From positions 114,743 to 163,010 of the forward strand of contig JABJNO010000017.1 in assembly GCA_018664825.1 (NCBI GenBank): a stretch of DNA of 48,268 nt, written 5' to 3'. Below, one piece after another: positions 7,578 to 26,483 of the stretch; the stretch's first letter is position 1; every line of letters starts with the position of its first letter. This stretch comes from Candidatus Parcubacteria bacterium (GTDB taxonomy: Bacteria; Patescibacteriota; Patescibacteriia; UBA1558; GWA2-36-10). Position numbers and translations under genes: made by a program. The notes beneath the pieces are model-generated. The model did not search any database. It had not been told where the DNA came from and saw only the letters and a program-made list of their open reading frames with translations.

Positions 7578-7602
7578 CCGATATTGACAATTTAATTATC
7601 TC

Positions 7603-7710
7603 AAATGAGGCGAAGAATTATAGTCCGTATTTGGACGCTTGGACTATAAGGAGCTAGTAGCGTAACCGGCATTCAATAGCTTTTTGGCACCTCATTTTAG
7701 GTGTTTTTTT
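7603..7710 (+). promoter_or_regulatory. Structured leader element copy 1 plus terminator (riboswitch/attenuator-like)
   Basis: 68-nt unit 7606-7673. P1 AAATGAGG (7603-7610):CCTCATTT (7690-7697). P2 TTATAGTCC:GGACTATAA (7618-7626:7641-7649). Possible pseudoknot ACGCT:AGCGT (7635-7639:7659-7663). Terminator CACCT..AGGTG + T7 (7688-7710), mutually exclusive with P1. Confidence 0.65.
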
Positions 7711-7803
7711 GTACGTACATTACAACAAAAATATTTGAGGCGAAGAATTATAGTCCGTATTTGGACGCTTGGACTATAAGGAGCTAGTAGCGTAACCGGC
7801 ATT
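7606..7803 (+). repeat. Two direct copies of a 68-bp unit (7606-7673 and 7736-7803), 130-bp period
   Basis: TGAGGCGAAGAATTATAGTCCGTATTTGGACGCTTGGACTATAAGGAGCTAGTAGCGTAACCGGCATT occurs twice with no mismatch; the 62-bp spacer is unrelated to the sequence after copy 2. Confidence 0.95.
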
Positions 7804-7854
7804 GTTTTTGTTGGTTTTTGGTACTCTCAACGCCTCTTAGAAGAGGTGTTTTTT
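7736..7854 (+). promoter_or_regulatory. Structured leader element copy 2 plus terminator, directly upstream of an SD and start codon
   Basis: 68-nt unit 7736-7803, identical to copy 1. P1 GAGGCG (7737-7742):CGCCTC (7831-7836). Terminator CGCCTCTT/AAGAGGTG + T6 (7831-7854), different in sequence from terminator 1. Confidence 0.65.
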
Positions 7855-7875
7855 GATATAACAGGAGGTTTTGTT

Positions 7876-8055
7876 ATGACTCACAAAAAACGAATGCTCA
7901 TCAAAAGAGCCCAAGGCTTGATTGCCAAACATCATGAAAACTTGGACTGGGATACAAAAGTATTGTACGAAAAAGTCCGGTTTCTGATACAAGACATGAC
8001 CCCCGAACAAATAGCTCAGGCTATGTTACGGGAAATGCATCGGGGCTCCAAGTAA
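7876..8055 (+). CDS. Small hypothetical protein (59 aa)
   Basis: MTHKKRMLIKRAQGLIAKHHENLDWDTKVLYEKVRFLIQDMTPEQIAQAMLREMHRGSK; SD AGGAGG at 7863-7868. Confidence 0.75.
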   Translation: MTHKKRMLIKRAQGLIAKHHENLDWDTKVLYEKVRFLIQDMTPEQIAQAMLREMHRGSK

Positions 8056-8099: not shown

Positions 8100-8510
8100 A
8101 TGTCCCAAGTCTTCATCTTTGATTTTTCACCGGAACGCATCAAGGCTTTGCAAGCATCCCTCGAAGAGGATGGTCACACAGTTTTTAGTAATCTTGTCGT
8201 CAATGATGACGATCCTGATAACCCCCAACTGATCACCGAAGTGGTTGATGTGGTTCAAATCCTACTCAAGGACAAGCCCTTCCCGAATATAGTCATCGCT
8301 GAAGCCGACAAGGTGGATGGTGGTTGGCTGGGTGGGCTAATCTACGATATGGAGCTGGGCAACAACACTAGTCTAGTGCTATTGGCCGAACACGAAAATG
8401 AGAAAATAAAGCAACTCAAACGTCTTTATGGTGCTCATTTTTGGCCCACAGATGCTAAGCTGGAGCATCTATTGGAATACATCAAAGTATTTCACTGTGT
8501 TTCCAGCTAA
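8100..8510 (+). CDS. Receiver (CheY)-like domain protein, apparently degenerate at the phospho-site
   Basis: MSQVFIFDFSPERIKALQASLEEDGHTV...NIVIAEADKVDGGW...SLVLLAEHENEKIKQLKRLYGAHFWPTDAKLEHLLEYI: receiver-like beta/alpha order; SD AAGGAGG before ATG. Confidence 0.6.
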   Translation: MSQVFIFDFSPERIKALQASLEEDGHTVFSNLVVNDDDPDNPQLITEVVDVVQILLKDKPFPNIVIAEADKVDGGWLGGLIYDMELGNNTSLVLLAEHENEKIKQLKRLYGAHFWPTDAKLEHLLEYIKVFHCVSS

Positions 8511-8643: not shown

Positions 8644-9363
8644 ATGAAGCACATCCTTACTATCATTCTGATTCTGGCTGCCAGCATGCTTTTTGTTGGT
8701 TGCGAGCAGGGCAATGACATCACTGTTGCTGTACCTGATTTTGACGAAAATGGCGTCAATGTCACTGCCGATGAAGTTCACACCGAACTTCTCGAAAAGA
8801 TGTATGCCGAACGAGATTTCGCCAAGTTGGACAAGTCCGCGATGTCTACTGATGCTACCAGAATTACTAACGAAGTTCTGACTAGCTATGGTGAAGCTCC
8901 GATGAGCGAAGAGGATATCGCTGACGCTATCGAAGAAGGTCGTCGTATGGCCAAGATGGACCCCGATGTGTTGATTGCTAGCATCCTTGATGCTAATGAT
9001 CTTGTCTGGTGGAATCGCTTTGCCAACGAGGCTACGGCCATCAACTGTCGTCAGGTTTACAAGGCTCACTGCAAGACCTATGGTACCCCTGAGGCCGGTA
9101 GTATGCTGGAAACTCTAACTGGTGTGGGCATGTCTTCCGGTGAATTCTGGAGCAAGTACCGCAAGGACGATATTCCTACCTACAACAACCCTTATGTCCC
9201 CCAGCAGAACGAAAAAAGCTGGCGTGGATTCTTCCGCTTTGTGGTGGCTGTGGCTGTTGACGGTGGCGCTGGTGCGGCTTCGTCTGCTGGTGGTCCGATT
9301 GTTGCTGGTGCTGTCGCCGGTTTGGCCAGCATCGGTGCTGACACTGTTATCTTTGGTGAGTAA
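8644..9363 (+). CDS. Putative lipoprotein with Gly/Ala-rich hydrophobic C-terminus
   Basis: MKHILTIILILAASMLFVGCEQGND (lipobox LFVGC); SD AGGAGG at 8631-8636; C-terminus GGAGAASSAGGPIVAGAVAGLASIGADTVIFGE. Confidence 0.75.
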   Translation: MKHILTIILILAASMLFVGCEQGNDITVAVPDFDENGVNVTADEVHTELLEKMYAERDFAKLDKSAMSTDATRITNEVLTSYGEAPMSEEDIADAIEEGRRMAKMDPDVLIASILDANDLVWWNRFANEATAINCRQVYKAHCKTYGTPEAGSMLETLTGVGMSSGEFWSKYRKDDIPTYNNPYVPQQNEKSWRGFFRFVVAVAVDGGAGAASSAGGPIVAGAVAGLASIGADTVIFGE

Positions 9364-9416: not shown

Positions 9417-9647
9417 ATGCCGAGTCCTCTTCTTTACATTATTTTTGGTGTTGTTGGTACCTTTATTGGTCACCTGATGCTGAAAAATGACAAAATTACC
9501 TACCCCTTGGGCATTGGTATTGGTCTGGCAATCGGCTTTACGATTAGCAACCAAGCCCCTGCCTATTTGTTGGCGATTTTGCTCTTTGCTCCGCTTTTGA
9601 TCTGGCGCAGGAAACACGTTCTTGCTCAGTCTATTAGTATGAGCTAA
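9417..9647 (+). CDS. Small membrane protein
   Basis: 76-aa hydrophobic ORF, SD GGAGG immediately upstream. Confidence 0.65.
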   Translation: MPSPLLYIIFGVVGTFIGHLMLKNDKITYPLGIGIGLAIGFTISNQAPAYLLAILLFAPLLIWRRKHVLAQSISMS

Positions 9648-9789: not shown

Positions 9790-10080
9790 ATGAGGCGAAT
9801 AAGCTTAGTTTTGAGTGTTTGTCTTTTGGCAACACTCCTCTGCTCTTGTAGCTATCATCCTCCAATCAACACCGCTACTTCTTATATAGCGAGCAATGAT
9901 AGTACTGGCACACAAAAAATCATCGTCGTCAACGGCAAAAAATATACTTGCATCAACGAAGATGGTACTTGGCGATGTGTAGAATTGGCAGATTTTGAGA
10001 ACAAACTCACTGGTATGGGAAGTTTAAATGCTTCCCAACAAAACTCAAATATTGGACCAAACAATCCAAACGAAAGGTAA
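9790..10080 (+). CDS. Small putative lipoprotein
   Basis: MRRISLVLSVCLLATLLCSCSYHPP: signal peptide and lipobox LCSC. Confidence 0.65.
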   Translation: MRRISLVLSVCLLATLLCSCSYHPPINTATSYIASNDSTGTQKIIVVNGKKYTCINEDGTWRCVELADFENKLTGMGSLNASQQNSNIGPNNPNER

Positions 10081-10084
10081 GGAA

Positions 10085-10720
10085 ATGCGAAAATATTTTC
10101 TTTTGGGCACAATCTTGCTACTCATGCTGAGTATCTCGGCTTGCTCAACAACTGGTTCTAGATTTGCTGCTACACGCCAGCTCTCTATCCACCAAGCCGC
10201 ATACAATGATAGTACCAAGCTGGACTTCTTTCAATACAAAGAAGGTTGGTTGGACCCACAAACAGTAATTCTCGCTGAAGCCAACCGTATGTCGCAGCAA
10301 AGTGGTGGTATGCCTGTTGAAACTGTACGAGCAATCATGCCTGATATGCCAAGGTATAAAATATTTTTTTACCTTGCCAAGCAAAATGTTGTTGTTTATA
10401 GAATAGGCATAGATATGCCCTCTGATCTTTTACTCAAATTCTCTTCGCGTGGTAGCCTGACCTTTAACTTGGCTTCTGGCAAAGAGGTCCCTGACTTAGG
10501 AATCATTGTTCCGCAAGATTTTAGTCCAATCTCTGATTGGCATGATTCACGTCGACAAGTAGCTGTCTTGAGCAAAAATTCGAATAATGGCAAACCTGCG
10601 GGTATGCCAAATGTAATATTCGTCTTGATGCCAAAATCAGTCTATGGTCAACGTGTAGTGAAAGTCACTCCCAACAAAAGCATGAGCTTTTCTGGTCAAG
10701 CATCCTTTGCTCTTAAGTGA
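10085..10720 (+). CDS. Putative lipoprotein
   Basis: MRKYFLLGTILLLMLSISACSTTGSRF (lipobox SISAC). ATG at 10085 preferred over the track start at 10028. Confidence 0.7.
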   Translation: MRKYFLLGTILLLMLSISACSTTGSRFAATRQLSIHQAAYNDSTKLDFFQYKEGWLDPQTVILAEANRMSQQSGGMPVETVRAIMPDMPRYKIFFYLAKQNVVVYRIGIDMPSDLLLKFSSRGSLTFNLASGKEVPDLGIIVPQDFSPISDWHDSRRQVAVLSKNSNNGKPAGMPNVIFVLMPKSVYGQRVVKVTPNKSMSFSGQASFALK

Positions 10721-10808
10721 CTTTCTCCTGATAGGTCACGGGGGGAACGAAAGGAGGATTTTGTACAAATCACCCCGAATAGACAATTCCAACCCCATGG
10801 AGGAAGTA

Positions 10809-11009
10809 ATGAAGAAGATCACCATGACTATCATGATAGTCATCCTGGCAATCAGCCTGACGGCACCAGCTGTCATGGCGGGTTACCTGCCACCCCTGTC
10901 TTGCACAACCGCAGCGGAACTCGGTTGGAAAAGCTGGGGATGGAACACGCGTTGTCTCTATGCAATGCAGGACAACTGTTGTGACCCAATGGGCGATCCT
11001 TGGTACTAG
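10809..11009 (+). CDS. Small secreted Cys/Trp-rich peptide precursor
   Basis: MKKITMTIMIVILAISLTAPAVMA|GYLPPLSCTTAAELGWKSWGWNTRCLYAMQDNCCDPMGDPWY; SD GGAGG 5 nt before ATG; followed by a terminator. Confidence 0.65.
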   Translation: MKKITMTIMIVILAISLTAPAVMAGYLPPLSCTTAAELGWKSWGWNTRCLYAMQDNCCDPMGDPWY

Positions 11010-21961: not shown

Positions 21962-23278
21962 TTATTTTTTAAAAGCTAATAATTTATTATTTAACATCAA
22001 TCTACTATTAAAACAATCTAATAATTCCCTTTTTTCCAATATACTACCCTCTTTTAATATATATTTTGCATAATTTCGTATATCAATATCCTTCACTATA
22101 ATTTTATCTTTTACTCCCAATAATGATTGTTGAAATTTTTTAAATCTTTCAACCTCTATTTTAATCTTTTCCTTAATCCCGATATCATCAATATCTATAG
22201 TTTCAATCAGTTTTTCAAATTGCTTAATAAGATCTAATTCATTTATATATCCAGATTTACAAAACCTATCTTTTGTTTTTGCACAACTATAATAAACATA
22301 ACGATGAACATTCCCATTTTTCTGTTTCTTTATTTTTTCATCAGCTATTATCCCCGAACCACATAATCCACATTTCATTAATCTAGTAAAAGCAAACTCT
22401 TTATTATTAACTTTAACAATATGACTTTGCATTTGTTCTTGAGCTTCATCAAATAATTCTTTGGTAATAATGGGTTCATGTTTACCAGTGTACCAATTAC
22501 CACTTTTCTTTGGATATTCAAAAACACCATAATAGAAAGTATTCTTAAAGAGTACATAAAGATTACCTAATGTAAGATTTTTATTACCTGCTGTCTTAAA
22601 ATTTAAATCAAATTTAAGCCAATGATATACTTTACGACCACTCCATTTTTCATAAGCAACCTTTTCAAACATCTGTTTAATAATAGGAGCTCGATCTGGA
22701 TCAATAATAGCCTGACATTTTTTATCCATATTTTTATCTTTAAAATATCCAGTTGGAGCAGGTGCTGGCCATAATCCCATCTCAACTCTTGCCTTAAGTC
22801 CTCTTCTTACATTGATACTTTTATTATCATTCTCTAACTTTGCCTGACTACAAAGAATCATTAAAAGGAATTTTTCATTTGGCGAATTTTTAAACTGCTG
22901 GCCATAGGTACGTATCTCAATTAATAACTTCTGATCCATAAGATCTACTAAACTCCCCAGATCCCCCGCATTCCTACTTAACCTATCTGGTGCCCAAGTA
23001 ATAATTCCGTTATATCTCCCACGCCTTATATCTTCAAGTATTTCTTTAAATACTGGTCGTTGTCCAGAATCTTTAGCAGAATGAGCCTCTCTACGTATAT
23101 CTATAATCTCAAGCTCATCACGTTCTGCAATTGCAAGCATTTCTTTAACCTGTGAATCAATAGAAAGAGCTTGTTTTTCGTCTGATTCAGTTGATTTACG
23201 TGCATACAAGCAATACTTAATTTTAACATTTGGAGCTATAGTTTCCTTGCTAATTAAGGCTGATGTATTGTTTTCCAT
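21962..23278 (-). CDS. Large serine recombinase / resolvase-integrase
   Basis: YCLYARKSTESDEKQALSIDSQVKEM, ITWAPDRLSRNAGDLGSLV, Zn-ribbon CGLCGSGIIADEK...YYSCAKTKDRFC. Confidence 0.93.
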   Translation of the reverse strand: MENNTSALISKETIAPNVKIKYCLYARKSTESDEKQALSIDSQVKEMLAIAERDELEIIDIRREAHSAKDSGQRPVFKEILEDIRRGRYNGIITWAPDRLSRNAGDLGSLVDLMDQKLLIEIRTYGQQFKNSPNEKFLLMILCSQAKLENDNKSINVRRGLKARVEMGLWPAPAPTGYFKDKNMDKKCQAIIDPDRAPIIKQMFEKVAYEKWSGRKVYHWLKFDLNFKTAGNKNLTLGNLYVLFKNTFYYGVFEYPKKSGNWYTGKHEPIITKELFDEAQEQMQSHIVKVNNKEFAFTRLMKCGLCGSGIIADEKIKKQKNGNVHRYVYYSCAKTKDRFCKSGYINELDLIKQFEKLIETIDIDDIGIKEKIKIEVERFKKFQQSLLGVKDKIIVKDIDIRNYAKYILKEGSILEKRELLDCFNSRLMLNNKLLAFKK

Positions 23279-23355
23279 ACCTTAATTAATGACACACTTC
23301 ATAGCTTTTGCTAAGAGCTAGCTTGTCGATAACTTTCCTTATATGTAAGAGTAAA

Positions 23356-24822
23356 TTAAAAGAAATAAACTCTTGGTAAACAAGGTGTTTTTTCAGATAC
23401 ACTGTGTACAAGATTTGCAAATGAATCAGCCAAATCATCATGTTTTTCTACACCGAAATGTACAATTTGTTGTATGAGTTGTTCGGCACCCTCTCGAGGG
23501 AATAAGATTTGTCCAGATTTAATTAAATTGGCTGTAAGAACAAGACGACTACGTTTATCTTGATTTCCTGGTCTAGTTGTCATCACATCAAAAATACCTT
23601 CGTTCTGTAATTGTTGCGGAAGAGCTTTCTGATAAGCTACATCTTCTATAACAAATGTAGGATGAACTCCATCTTTTTTATAACTTTCGTATAATCTTTT
23701 ACAGGTATCAACAGTCTCTGGAAAAGTCATGCGTTTATTTATAATCTTTGGTAAAATATAAATTCTATAACCAGTTTTAATTTCATACAAAAGACCAGGA
23801 ACCATAGCCGTGTAATCTGCAACATTACTTTTTGAAATAGCAGGATCTATACCAATTCTTACCTCCATATGAGATGAATAACCACTATCAAATATCATTG
23901 GAGGTGGTATTTTGTCATAATAATGAATCCAATCTGGATGTATAGCTTGATCTTCATCTGGAACTATATTGAGCATGTACTCTCTCTGCCAAGCAATCTC
24001 ATTACCTGTTTTTCTTCGTTCCTTTTCAACATCATCTTCTGTTGGATATTTACCAGGCCATAGACATTTTCCTTTAGCATCAATAATTGGAAAATGAAGA
24101 AAATTACCATCAGCACGATCACTAACAATCTCACCTTTAAGTCGCATAAGAAGTGAATCCTCGTGCAGTAAATTACCAACTACAATTAATCTAGTATTTT
24201 TATCTCCTGCAGGAATAACTTCTCCTTTTAGCCATTGATAAGTCTTATTTCTCCCTTCTCTAGTTTTGGTGGAAGCAATATTTTCAACATCATCACATAT
24301 GATTAAGTCAGGTCTATGTTCATGATGTCTCAGTCCGCGAATACTTTGTTCAGCAGAAGCAACAGTAATACGAGCATCAGTATTAGAAAATACAATAGAA
24401 TGTGAACCCCACTCATCGCTAGTTCCACTAAAGGGACCTAGATCTTTTTTTAATAAATCATTATCTTCTAGTTCTCTTCGTAAATTCATCATATGCTGTT
24501 TTGCTTGGGATTGTGTTTGACAGAAAATAATAACAAATCTTTTCTGTTGTTTTCCGAGTATCGCCCAAATAGGATAGGCAGTAGTAACCATTGTAGATTT
24601 TCCTGATCCTCTAAAAGCAACGACAATTAAATTTTCATTATCACTTTTTTCGAGCAGATGAATAATCTCTTTTTGAAAATCTGCTGTGGCATATTTAACA
24701 TAATGAGCATAGTAGAAATGAAAGAAGTATGAAAAGCTTTCTTTAGTTATTGCTACTCTCACTTTTTTGTCCCTTGTCATCTGATTTACTAGATCCTGAG
24801 GGATTATTTTTTTCTCTAACAT
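23356..24822 (-). CDS. Phage terminase large subunit
   Basis: VVAFRGSGKSTMVTTAYPIWA (Walker A), DLIICDDVENIAS (Walker B), nuclease-domain VRIGIDPAIS and HDDLADSFANLV. Confidence 0.9.
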   Translation of the reverse strand: MLEKKIIPQDLVNQMTRDKKVRVAITKESFSYFFHFYYAHYVKYATADFQKEIIHLLEKSDNENLIVVAFRGSGKSTMVTTAYPIWAILGKQQKRFVIIFCQTQSQAKQHMMNLRRELEDNDLLKKDLGPFSGTSDEWGSHSIVFSNTDARITVASAEQSIRGLRHHEHRPDLIICDDVENIASTKTREGRNKTYQWLKGEVIPAGDKNTRLIVVGNLLHEDSLLMRLKGEIVSDRADGNFLHFPIIDAKGKCLWPGKYPTEDDVEKERRKTGNEIAWQREYMLNIVPDEDQAIHPDWIHYYDKIPPPMIFDSGYSSHMEVRIGIDPAISKSNVADYTAMVPGLLYEIKTGYRIYILPKIINKRMTFPETVDTCKRLYESYKKDGVHPTFVIEDVAYQKALPQQLQNEGIFDVMTTRPGNQDKRSRLVLTANLIKSGQILFPREGAEQLIQQIVHFGVEKHDDLADSFANLVHSVSEKTPCLPRVYFF

Positions 24823-25216
24823 AATTTTTTTTATTAATTGGTAAAATCTCCGCCAATTGCAAAGCCTTACGAACTATTGCAGTTTGTGACGGAGTAAGCT
24901 CTCCTGAATCATCTAATTTAGAAGTAACTTCTACTTTATCTCTAAAACGTGGATTTCGGTGATTAAGCCAAAATCTTATAGCAGAAAAGTTTTTTTCTTT
25001 TATAAGAGTAAGTAACTGGCTTTCACTCATATCATTAACCAAGGCCTCACCTTCAACTAATGCCTCGTCCATAGTTTTGGAGAATTTTTTATCTTCTCGT
25101 TTCCAACGATAGATACTATTTCTTGATATACCTGTTTTCTCGCAGGCTACTTGCACTATTGGAATTTTTTTCAATTCTGCAAGAAAAGTATTTCTAACTC
25201 TATTTTTCTTAGACAT
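24743..25216 (-). CDS. Terminase small-subunit-like HTH protein
   Basis: VACEKTGISRNSIYRWKREDKKFSKTMDEALVEGE...NFSAIRFWLNHRNPRFRDK; immediately upstream of terL. Confidence 0.75.
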   Translation of the reverse strand: MSKKNRVRNTFLAELKKIPIVQVACEKTGISRNSIYRWKREDKKFSKTMDEALVEGEALVNDMSESQLLTLIKEKNFSAIRFWLNHRNPRFRDKVEVTSKLDDSGELTPSQTAIVRKALQLAEILPINKKNYVREKNNPSGSSKSDDKGQKSESSNN

Positions 25217-26483
25217 GTTCCACCCTTACCTTTCTGCCAGTTAATTTCTCATATCTTCTGATCGTCAAATCACAAAATATAGGTTCCAGCTCAATTGCAT
25301 AAACTTTTCGCTTTAATTGTTCCCCAGCAATAATAGTACTACCTGATCCAGAGAAAGAGTCTAGAATGATATCACCAGGCTTAGTACAACGCCTTATAGC
25401 CTTTTCATGAAGCTTTGGTGGCTTACTAGTCGCATGTTCATATTTTTGACCAGATAAACGCTTTACAAGCCATATATCAATCTCATCAAAAGCCTCTTCG
25501 AGTAGATTATTTCCTGTAGTCATCTCTTTATTCAATACTTCATTGAGATTGTTAATATTAGGTGTAATATATGGTTTACCCTGCACTCCATATACCACGG
25601 GCTCATAACATTTATTGAAAGCGACCTTGGGTGTGGGATTCTGTGAGTTTTTTAACCACAAACACACTCGTTTATTTACAATACCGAGTTCTCTGTATAA
25701 TTCTTGAATTAAACCAATGTAAGTCTGGTCACACCAGTAAAAAATATGACAATTTGATTTAATAACTGCTAATGCAGTAACCAAAGTTTCTTTTATAAAG
25801 TTTTTATATTCTTTATAAGTTCGCTTATCATTTACATTCCCACCATAGTCTTTTTTACCTCCAATGCCTTTGGAATAATCTAGATTTATATTATATGGTG
25901 GATCTGAATAGATCATTGAAGCTTTTTCGTTTCCAAACAACCGTTTAAGATTTTTTGGATCAGCAGAACTACCACATAGTAATTTATGTGGTCCTAAGTG
26001 AATTAAGTCACCTAACTTAGTTTTGGGTGTCTTAATTTTTTTAAGTTCTTCTTCAACATCAAAATCTTCATCTTTAACCTCTAATTCTTCATCCCATAAA
26101 TTAGAAAGGTCTATTTGATCAAAACCTATATCAACTAATAAATCTAACTCAAAGGATTTGAGTTTTTCAAAATCCCAATCACCACCTAGAGCATTGCTAG
26201 CTATAAGGTAGCGTTCAGATTCTTCTTTAGTAAGTTGTCTATTAGGAATTCGTACATCAATCGACTCCTTACCTCTACCTAAAAGTTGCAAAGCTTTAAT
26301 TCTTTGATGACCAGCTAATATTTTCCCGTTTAGATCAATAGCTGGAATTTCCACTAAATTGAACTTTTTTAAGTTCTTTTTGAGATCCGACATTTGCTTA
26401 TCGGAAATGATACGAGGATTAACGTCTTGTGGAACAAGATCGTTAATGTGTTTTTGCACTGTGTGCCATTGTAGTTTTTGCAT
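25209..26483 (-). CDS. ParB-like N-terminal domain + N4/N6 DNA methyltransferase
   Basis: ParB-like PRIISDKQMSDLKKNLKKFNLVEIPAIDLNGKILAGHQRIKALQLLG; SDPPYNI and DSFSGSGSTIIAGEQLKRKVYAIELEP (DPPY before FxGxG). Confidence 0.9.
   Translation of the reverse strand: MQKLQWHTVQKHINDLVPQDVNPRIISDKQMSDLKKNLKKFNLVEIPAIDLNGKILAGHQRIKALQLLGRGKESIDVRIPNRQLTKEESERYLIASNALGGDWDFEKLKSFELDLLVDIGFDQIDLSNLWDEELEVKDEDFDVEEELKKIKTPKTKLGDLIHLGPHKLLCGSSADPKNLKRLFGNEKASMIYSDPPYNINLDYSKGIGGKKDYGGNVNDKRTYKEYKNFIKETLVTALAVIKSNCHIFYWCDQTYIGLIQELYRELGIVNKRVCLWLKNSQNPTPKVAFNKCYEPVVYGVQGKPYITPNINNLNEVLNKEMTTGNNLLEEAFDEIDIWLVKRLSGQKYEHATSKPPKLHEKAIRRCTKPGDIILDSFSGSGSTIIAGEQLKRKVYAIELEPIFCDLTIRRYEKLTGRKVRVEHV

Follow-up and report, generated by a model that had tools for sequence, protein, structure and literature searches.

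What is the exact tandem repeat that precedes a run of secreted-protein genes in this Candidatus Parcubacteria genome, in which direction does it switch transcription, and to what signal does it respond? The preliminary description of the window (the whole 48,268-nt stretch analysed here) had proposed two aptamer-terminator units of an orphan class, and the layout that it reported is present in the sequence. Identical copies of a 68-nt segment lie at 7606–7673 and 7736–7803, with no third occurrence in the window at ≤3 mismatches (shuffled sequences give 0 expected), and each copy is followed by its own distinct terminator-like hairpin and T tract. The 9-bp stem, the ACGCT:AGCGT loop pairing, and the complementarity of the edge of each copy to the arm of its terminator (AAATGAGG:CCTCATTT and GAGGCG:CGCCTC) could all be located, as could the 8 nt that separate the second T tract (7849–7854) from the Shine-Dalgarno sequence. 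A consensus scan of the + strand found no sigma-70 promoter. The genome is represented by a 1.16-Mb assembly that is 98.7% complete, and these two aptamers are the only ones that it carries.

Both copies belong to a known riboswitch class, c-di-GMP-II, which senses the bacterial second messenger cyclic di-GMP and is characterised by binding at a subnanomolar Kd. The Rfam scan that had been suggested as a check, and in which a confident match to a known class was to count against the orphan reading, returned two RF01786 matches with cmscan, each spanning the whole model, extending beyond the 68-nt repeat (Table 1), and scoring well above the gathering threshold (cut-off, 53.5 bits). An orphan class is thus ruled out, and the broader proposal of a riboswitch built from tandem aptamer-terminator units is borne out by the two matches and the two terminators, the pseudoknot also being real. 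The altered-ligand variants c-di-GMP-II-GAG and -GCG were also rejected, as RF01786 won the clan competition in both window copies. Agreement with RF01786 covers the sequence, the P1-P2-P3 fold, the pseudoknot, and the AACCG segment, as well as the score above the curated cut-off. The A, A, and G of this segment, which we take to be conserved ligand-site residues, are kept in 32 of 33 aptamers, and the two window copies are among these 32. The window elements differ from typical RF01786 members in their pseudoknot, which is ACGCU:AGCGU rather than the consensus GCAC:GUGC, in their genomic setting, which lacks a detectable GGDEF domain, and in their predicted transcriptional OFF behaviour. The ACGCU:AGCGU pairing is nevertheless the class pseudoknot with an altered sequence; it is invariant in 25 aptamers, and one family member carries GCGCU:AGCGC, a compensatory change.

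Relatives show that the fold covaries and that the tandem is common. Of the 21 family genomes, 12 carry RF01786, mostly as pairs with a spacing of about 155–190 nt, and the named relatives recovered by a lipoprotein-based search were metagenome-assembled genomes (MAGs) labelled Candidatus Komeilibacteria and Parcubacteria. Among the 25 family aptamers of normal length, which formed the covariation set, 96.6% of pair cells were standard pairs, 11 of the 20 pairs in P1, P2, and P3 had changed on both sides, and 78 cells were changed on both sides compared with 3–11 in slid controls. All 8 pairs of P3 have changed on both sides among relatives, and in most tandems the two copies are unlike each other, P3 included, with near-identical copies seen only in the window, G002 (L033), and G005 (L037). 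This variability runs against the earlier argument that the invariant core reflects selection and not fresh duplication. With P3 so free to change among relatives, the identity of the window cores points to recent homogenisation, by duplication or gene conversion. For the tandem itself, recent duplication was rejected as the source, since many family members have the arrangement; what is recent is the identity of the cores. A mobile repeat of the IS or att type was likewise rejected because the tandem pairs that relatives carry before the same genes have diverged and come with terminators of their own. In one relative (G013; L041 3928–4011), the first copy of the tandem reads AACCC instead of AACCG and possibly has an inactivated ligand site, and the second copy is intact.

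Two complete aptamers of the same class, each coupled to a separate expression platform, constitute a tandem, pseudo-cooperative riboswitch, a layout already known from 59 doublets and 9 triplets of c-di-GMP-II riboswitches (PMC9481103). Most of those tandems come from Paraclostridium and its relatives, where a gene for a surface anchor protein follows (PMC9481103), whereas the window tandem lies in a member of the Patescibacteria, before receiver-like and lipoprotein genes. A literature search of partial coverage found no report of c-di-GMP riboswitches in Patescibacteria. The class and the tandem layout are thus familiar, and what is unusual here is the predicted polarity, compared with the characterised Clostridioides difficile members, and the setting of a receptor without a synthase.

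The polarity prediction derives from how the terminators pair with the aptamers. A terminator was detectable after 32 of the 33 aptamers. In copy 1, the aptamer segment AAATGAGG forms an antiterminator with the 5' arm and the loop of the terminator, and in copy 2 the terminator 5' arm CGCCTC pairs with GAGGCG. Placed on the RF01786 model, AAATGAGG:CCTCATTT occupies the positions of P1, the intervening A, and two P2 bases; GAGGCG also takes P2. Terminators are matched to their own aptamers: for 32 aptamers, the pairing of the 5' segment with its own terminator 5' arm averaged −10.0 kcal/mol compared with −7.8 kcal/mol for permuted partners, with 0 of 20,000 permutations as good and also 0 when permutation was confined to the copy class. 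The matched variants include GAGGCG/CGCCTC, GAGACG/CGTCTC, GAGATG/CATCTC, and GAGGTG/CACCTC. A second design occurs in several first copies of relatives, where the antiterminator consists of the aptamer 3' segment GCGUAACCGG, which contains pseudoknot and ligand-site residues, paired with CCGGAAACGC (own versus permuted, p about 0.005). Energy calculations without ligand or pseudoknot predicted the antiterminator as the best fold of copy 1, at −30.8 kcal/mol compared with −19.9 kcal/mol for aptamer plus terminator. The two states of copy 2 lie close together (−39.1 kcal/mol for the best fold, with the terminator, and −38.1 kcal/mol for the antiterminator) and are not separated by energy; therefore, the polarity of copy 2 rests on comparison.

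The complementarity had first been taken to mean that closing P1 blocks termination. That interpretation probably fails, since the arm pairing consumes the P1 and P2 strands of the aptamer and so excludes the ligand-bound fold. Because folding of the aptamer requires the very strands to which the terminator 5' arms pair, ligand should cause termination, and we infer OFF polarity in the cell for both antiterminator designs. Taken together, the two aptamer-terminator units are probably c-di-GMP-II termination OFF switches arranged in series upstream of an operon. When ligand is absent, the P1 5' and P2 5' strands would hold the 5' arm of the next terminator in a duplex and allow read-through; when ligand is bound, the folded aptamer would reclaim these strands, the terminator would form, and transcription would stop. 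With two such switches in series, the operon would be transcribed only when both aptamers are empty, which should sharpen the response.

This predicted polarity is unusual because each of the four class II riboswitches of C. difficile acts as an ON switch (PMC6200980); they share the aptamer class and surface-related targets with the window. That precedent, together with the complementarity in the sequence, could favour reading the same RNA as an ON switch in which ligand closes a long P1 that includes the terminator 5' arm and prevents termination; such a reading is improbable, however, given that the pairings of copy 1 and copy 2 use bases that the RF01786 fold needs for P1 and P2, making the states mutually exclusive, and that several first-copy antiterminators of relatives draw on a segment with pseudoknot and ligand-site residues. 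The OFF arrangement has a functional parallel in the Cd1 class I riboswitch, where c-di-GMP favours terminator formation and the ligand cannot bind the antiterminator conformation (PMC9262584): the working principle is the one predicted for the window switches, and the aptamer class is unrelated.

Table 1. Features of the tandem riboswitch and of the genes downstream (window coordinates).
Feature	Position	Strand	Basis or remark
Aptamer copy 1, c-di-GMP-II	7597..7680	+	RF01786, 63.9 bits, E 4.5e-12, window scan
Intrinsic terminator, copy 1	7686..7710	+	Stem 7686–7705, then T tract
Aptamer copy 2, c-di-GMP-II	7727..7809	+	RF01786, 66.7 bits, E 7.4e-13, window scan
Intrinsic terminator, copy 2	7829..7854	+	Stem 7829–7850
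Shine-Dalgarno AGGAGG	7863..7868	+	Read from sequence; ATG then at 7876
59-aa ORF, first gene of operon	7876..8055	+	G002 (L034) has a similar small ORF ahead of its receiver-like gene
136-aa solo receiver-like (CheY-fold) protein, main conserved target	8100..8510	+	11-member alignment A1
239-aa lipoprotein, lipobox LFVGC, second conserved target	8644..9363	+	Alignment A2, 45–69% identity
76-aa membrane protein	9417..9647	+	Also behind lipoprotein in relatives
Block: small lipoprotein, second lipoprotein, small secreted Cys-containing peptide	9790..11009	+	Similarity by eye

The targets form a single gene run on the + strand and are probably one operon, which includes lipoprotein and secreted genes, in agreement with the original placement of the element ahead of a secreted-protein block. 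The 59-aa ORF had no match in Pfam or NCBIfam. Pfam Response_reg was matched by 6 of the 11 A1 members (best, 1.5e-5), and an AlphaFold2 model of the receiver-like protein (pLDDT 85) gave Foldseek matches to the receivers CheY4, PhoP, and DivK. By eye, the position of the phosphoacceptor Asp is Glu in many A1 members, that of the window included, and the window protein has no conserved KP(F) motif; these two features suggest a pseudo-receiver. The 239-aa lipoprotein gave a helical model with no PDB match below E 0.5. Within the family, aptamers are followed either by a solo receiver-like gene (A1) or by the lipoprotein (A2) and then a small membrane protein, and by inspection an aptamer also precedes a similar lipoprotein or receiver-like gene in genomes from another two of the class's families (G054; G062 and G127). 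The predicted class II OFF polarity, the two antiterminator designs, and this conserved, uncharacterised surface regulon offer handles on gene regulation in Patescibacteria.

The last block of the run has no aptamer of its own in the window; its counterpart in G019 does have its own c-di-GMP-II aptamer (L044 5841–5924). Small secreted peptides lie beside aptamer-controlled genes in several genomes (window 10809–11009; L044 7106–7327; L064 in G054), with conserved cysteines and a D-P-rich C-terminus (CCDPMGDPWY in the window, CCDPLGDPWY in G019), and had no family match. The same lipoprotein, at 39% identity, was also seen on a contig labelled Krumholzibacteriota (L059) without an Rfam riboswitch match, perhaps through misbinning or transfer.

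Where the ligand would come from is a separate question. RF01786 riboswitches usually, if not by strict definition, occur in genomes with c-di-GMP metabolism, and here such metabolism was not detected. GGDEF was found in 0 of the 21 family genomes, among them the one-contig genome G020, and a profile built from Patescibacteria GGDEF domains also found nothing in these 21 genomes (control genomes, 5.7e-47 and 1.5e-40). EAL, PilZ, and DAC were absent from the 21 genomes and from seven further aptamer-bearing genomes. These absences are as reliable as the MAGs and the sensitivity of the profiles allow, and MAG incompleteness is an unlikely cause of the missing GGDEF given the 0 of 21 count with G020 included. 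Because the family has no detectable GGDEF, EAL, PilZ, or DAC domain, a c-di-GMP signal cannot be assumed. A receptor without a synthase is unusual, implying either that the cells sense the messenger of another organism or that they have an unrecognised c-di-GMP enzyme.

The wider samples bear on the ligand in two ways. In the class sample of 389 genomes, GGDEF occurred in 104 and RF01786 in 17, with both only in G253; since the aptamers of G253 fit the c-di-GMP-II-GAG variant model better, all 16 genomes with a canonical aptamer are without GGDEF. GGDEF was thus present in 1 of 17 aptamer-bearing genomes compared with 103 of 372 others (Fisher p 0.05), counts that are not independent because the 16 genomes represent five families, ten of them coming from one. 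In the phylum sample, by contrast, GGDEF was present in 14 of 24 aptamer-bearing genomes versus 123 of 365 others (p 0.025). Two genomes from elsewhere in the phylum show it next to such genes: in G646 an aptamer and terminator lie directly 5' of a GGDEF gene, and in G673 an aptamer is followed by a protein that resembles PilZ. This co-occurrence and these neighbours make c-di-GMP the likely ligand in the phylum, and we infer that it is also the working ligand of the window aptamers.

One possible source, which we put forward tentatively, is c-di-GMP from another organism, a host or prey, taken up by cells that are presumably host dependent, so that the riboswitch eavesdrops on a foreign signal. 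It accords with the canonical aptamers of 12 of the 21 genomes in a family where even the Patescibacteria-derived profile finds no GGDEF, with the lack of EAL, PilZ, and DAC, with the 16 of 16 GGDEF-free carriers in five families, and with targets that are in part surface lipoproteins; its uptake route is putative, however, and a synthase of an unknown kind could exist. This proposal concerns the source of the ligand and is compatible with the OFF-switch explanation. Combining the two, very small Patescibacteria may keep c-di-GMP riboswitches as their sole recognisable c-di-GMP part, read a foreign messenger, and switch off a receiver-like/lipoprotein operon, a composite picture that we regard as conjectural.

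Alternatively, the ligand could be made in the cell by an enzyme that GGDEF profiles miss, such as a CD-NTase, some of which make c-di-GMP, or a highly diverged palm domain. The conserved aptamers imply a ligand that is regularly met, but the GGDEF and DAC profiles returned nothing, and we consider such a synthase about as possible as a foreign source. It is unlikely that the working ligand is instead pGpG or GpG, linear dinucleotides that RNA turnover yields, or a cyclic dinucleotide related to c-di-GMP. Class II aptamers do tolerate analogues, with a Kd of about 0.3 µM for pGpG and ≤10 nM for cyclic GpAp (PMC9495366); however, the ligand-site segment in the window is the canonical AACCG, and genes for GGDEF and PilZ-like proteins accompany canonical members of the class in the phylum.

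Two further observations concern neighbouring material. Also within this bacterial class, the GGDEF-bearing G253 has several aptamers of the c-di-GMP-II-GAG type (L070–L073), among them a tandem that precedes the gene of an 840-aa protein similar, by eye, to a DNA ligase D-like protein. Elsewhere in the window, a serine recombinase (Resolvase, Recombinase, and Zn ribbon), a terminase-like/helicase protein, and a DNA methylase are encoded in a row at 21962–26483, possibly a mobile or prophage-like segment.
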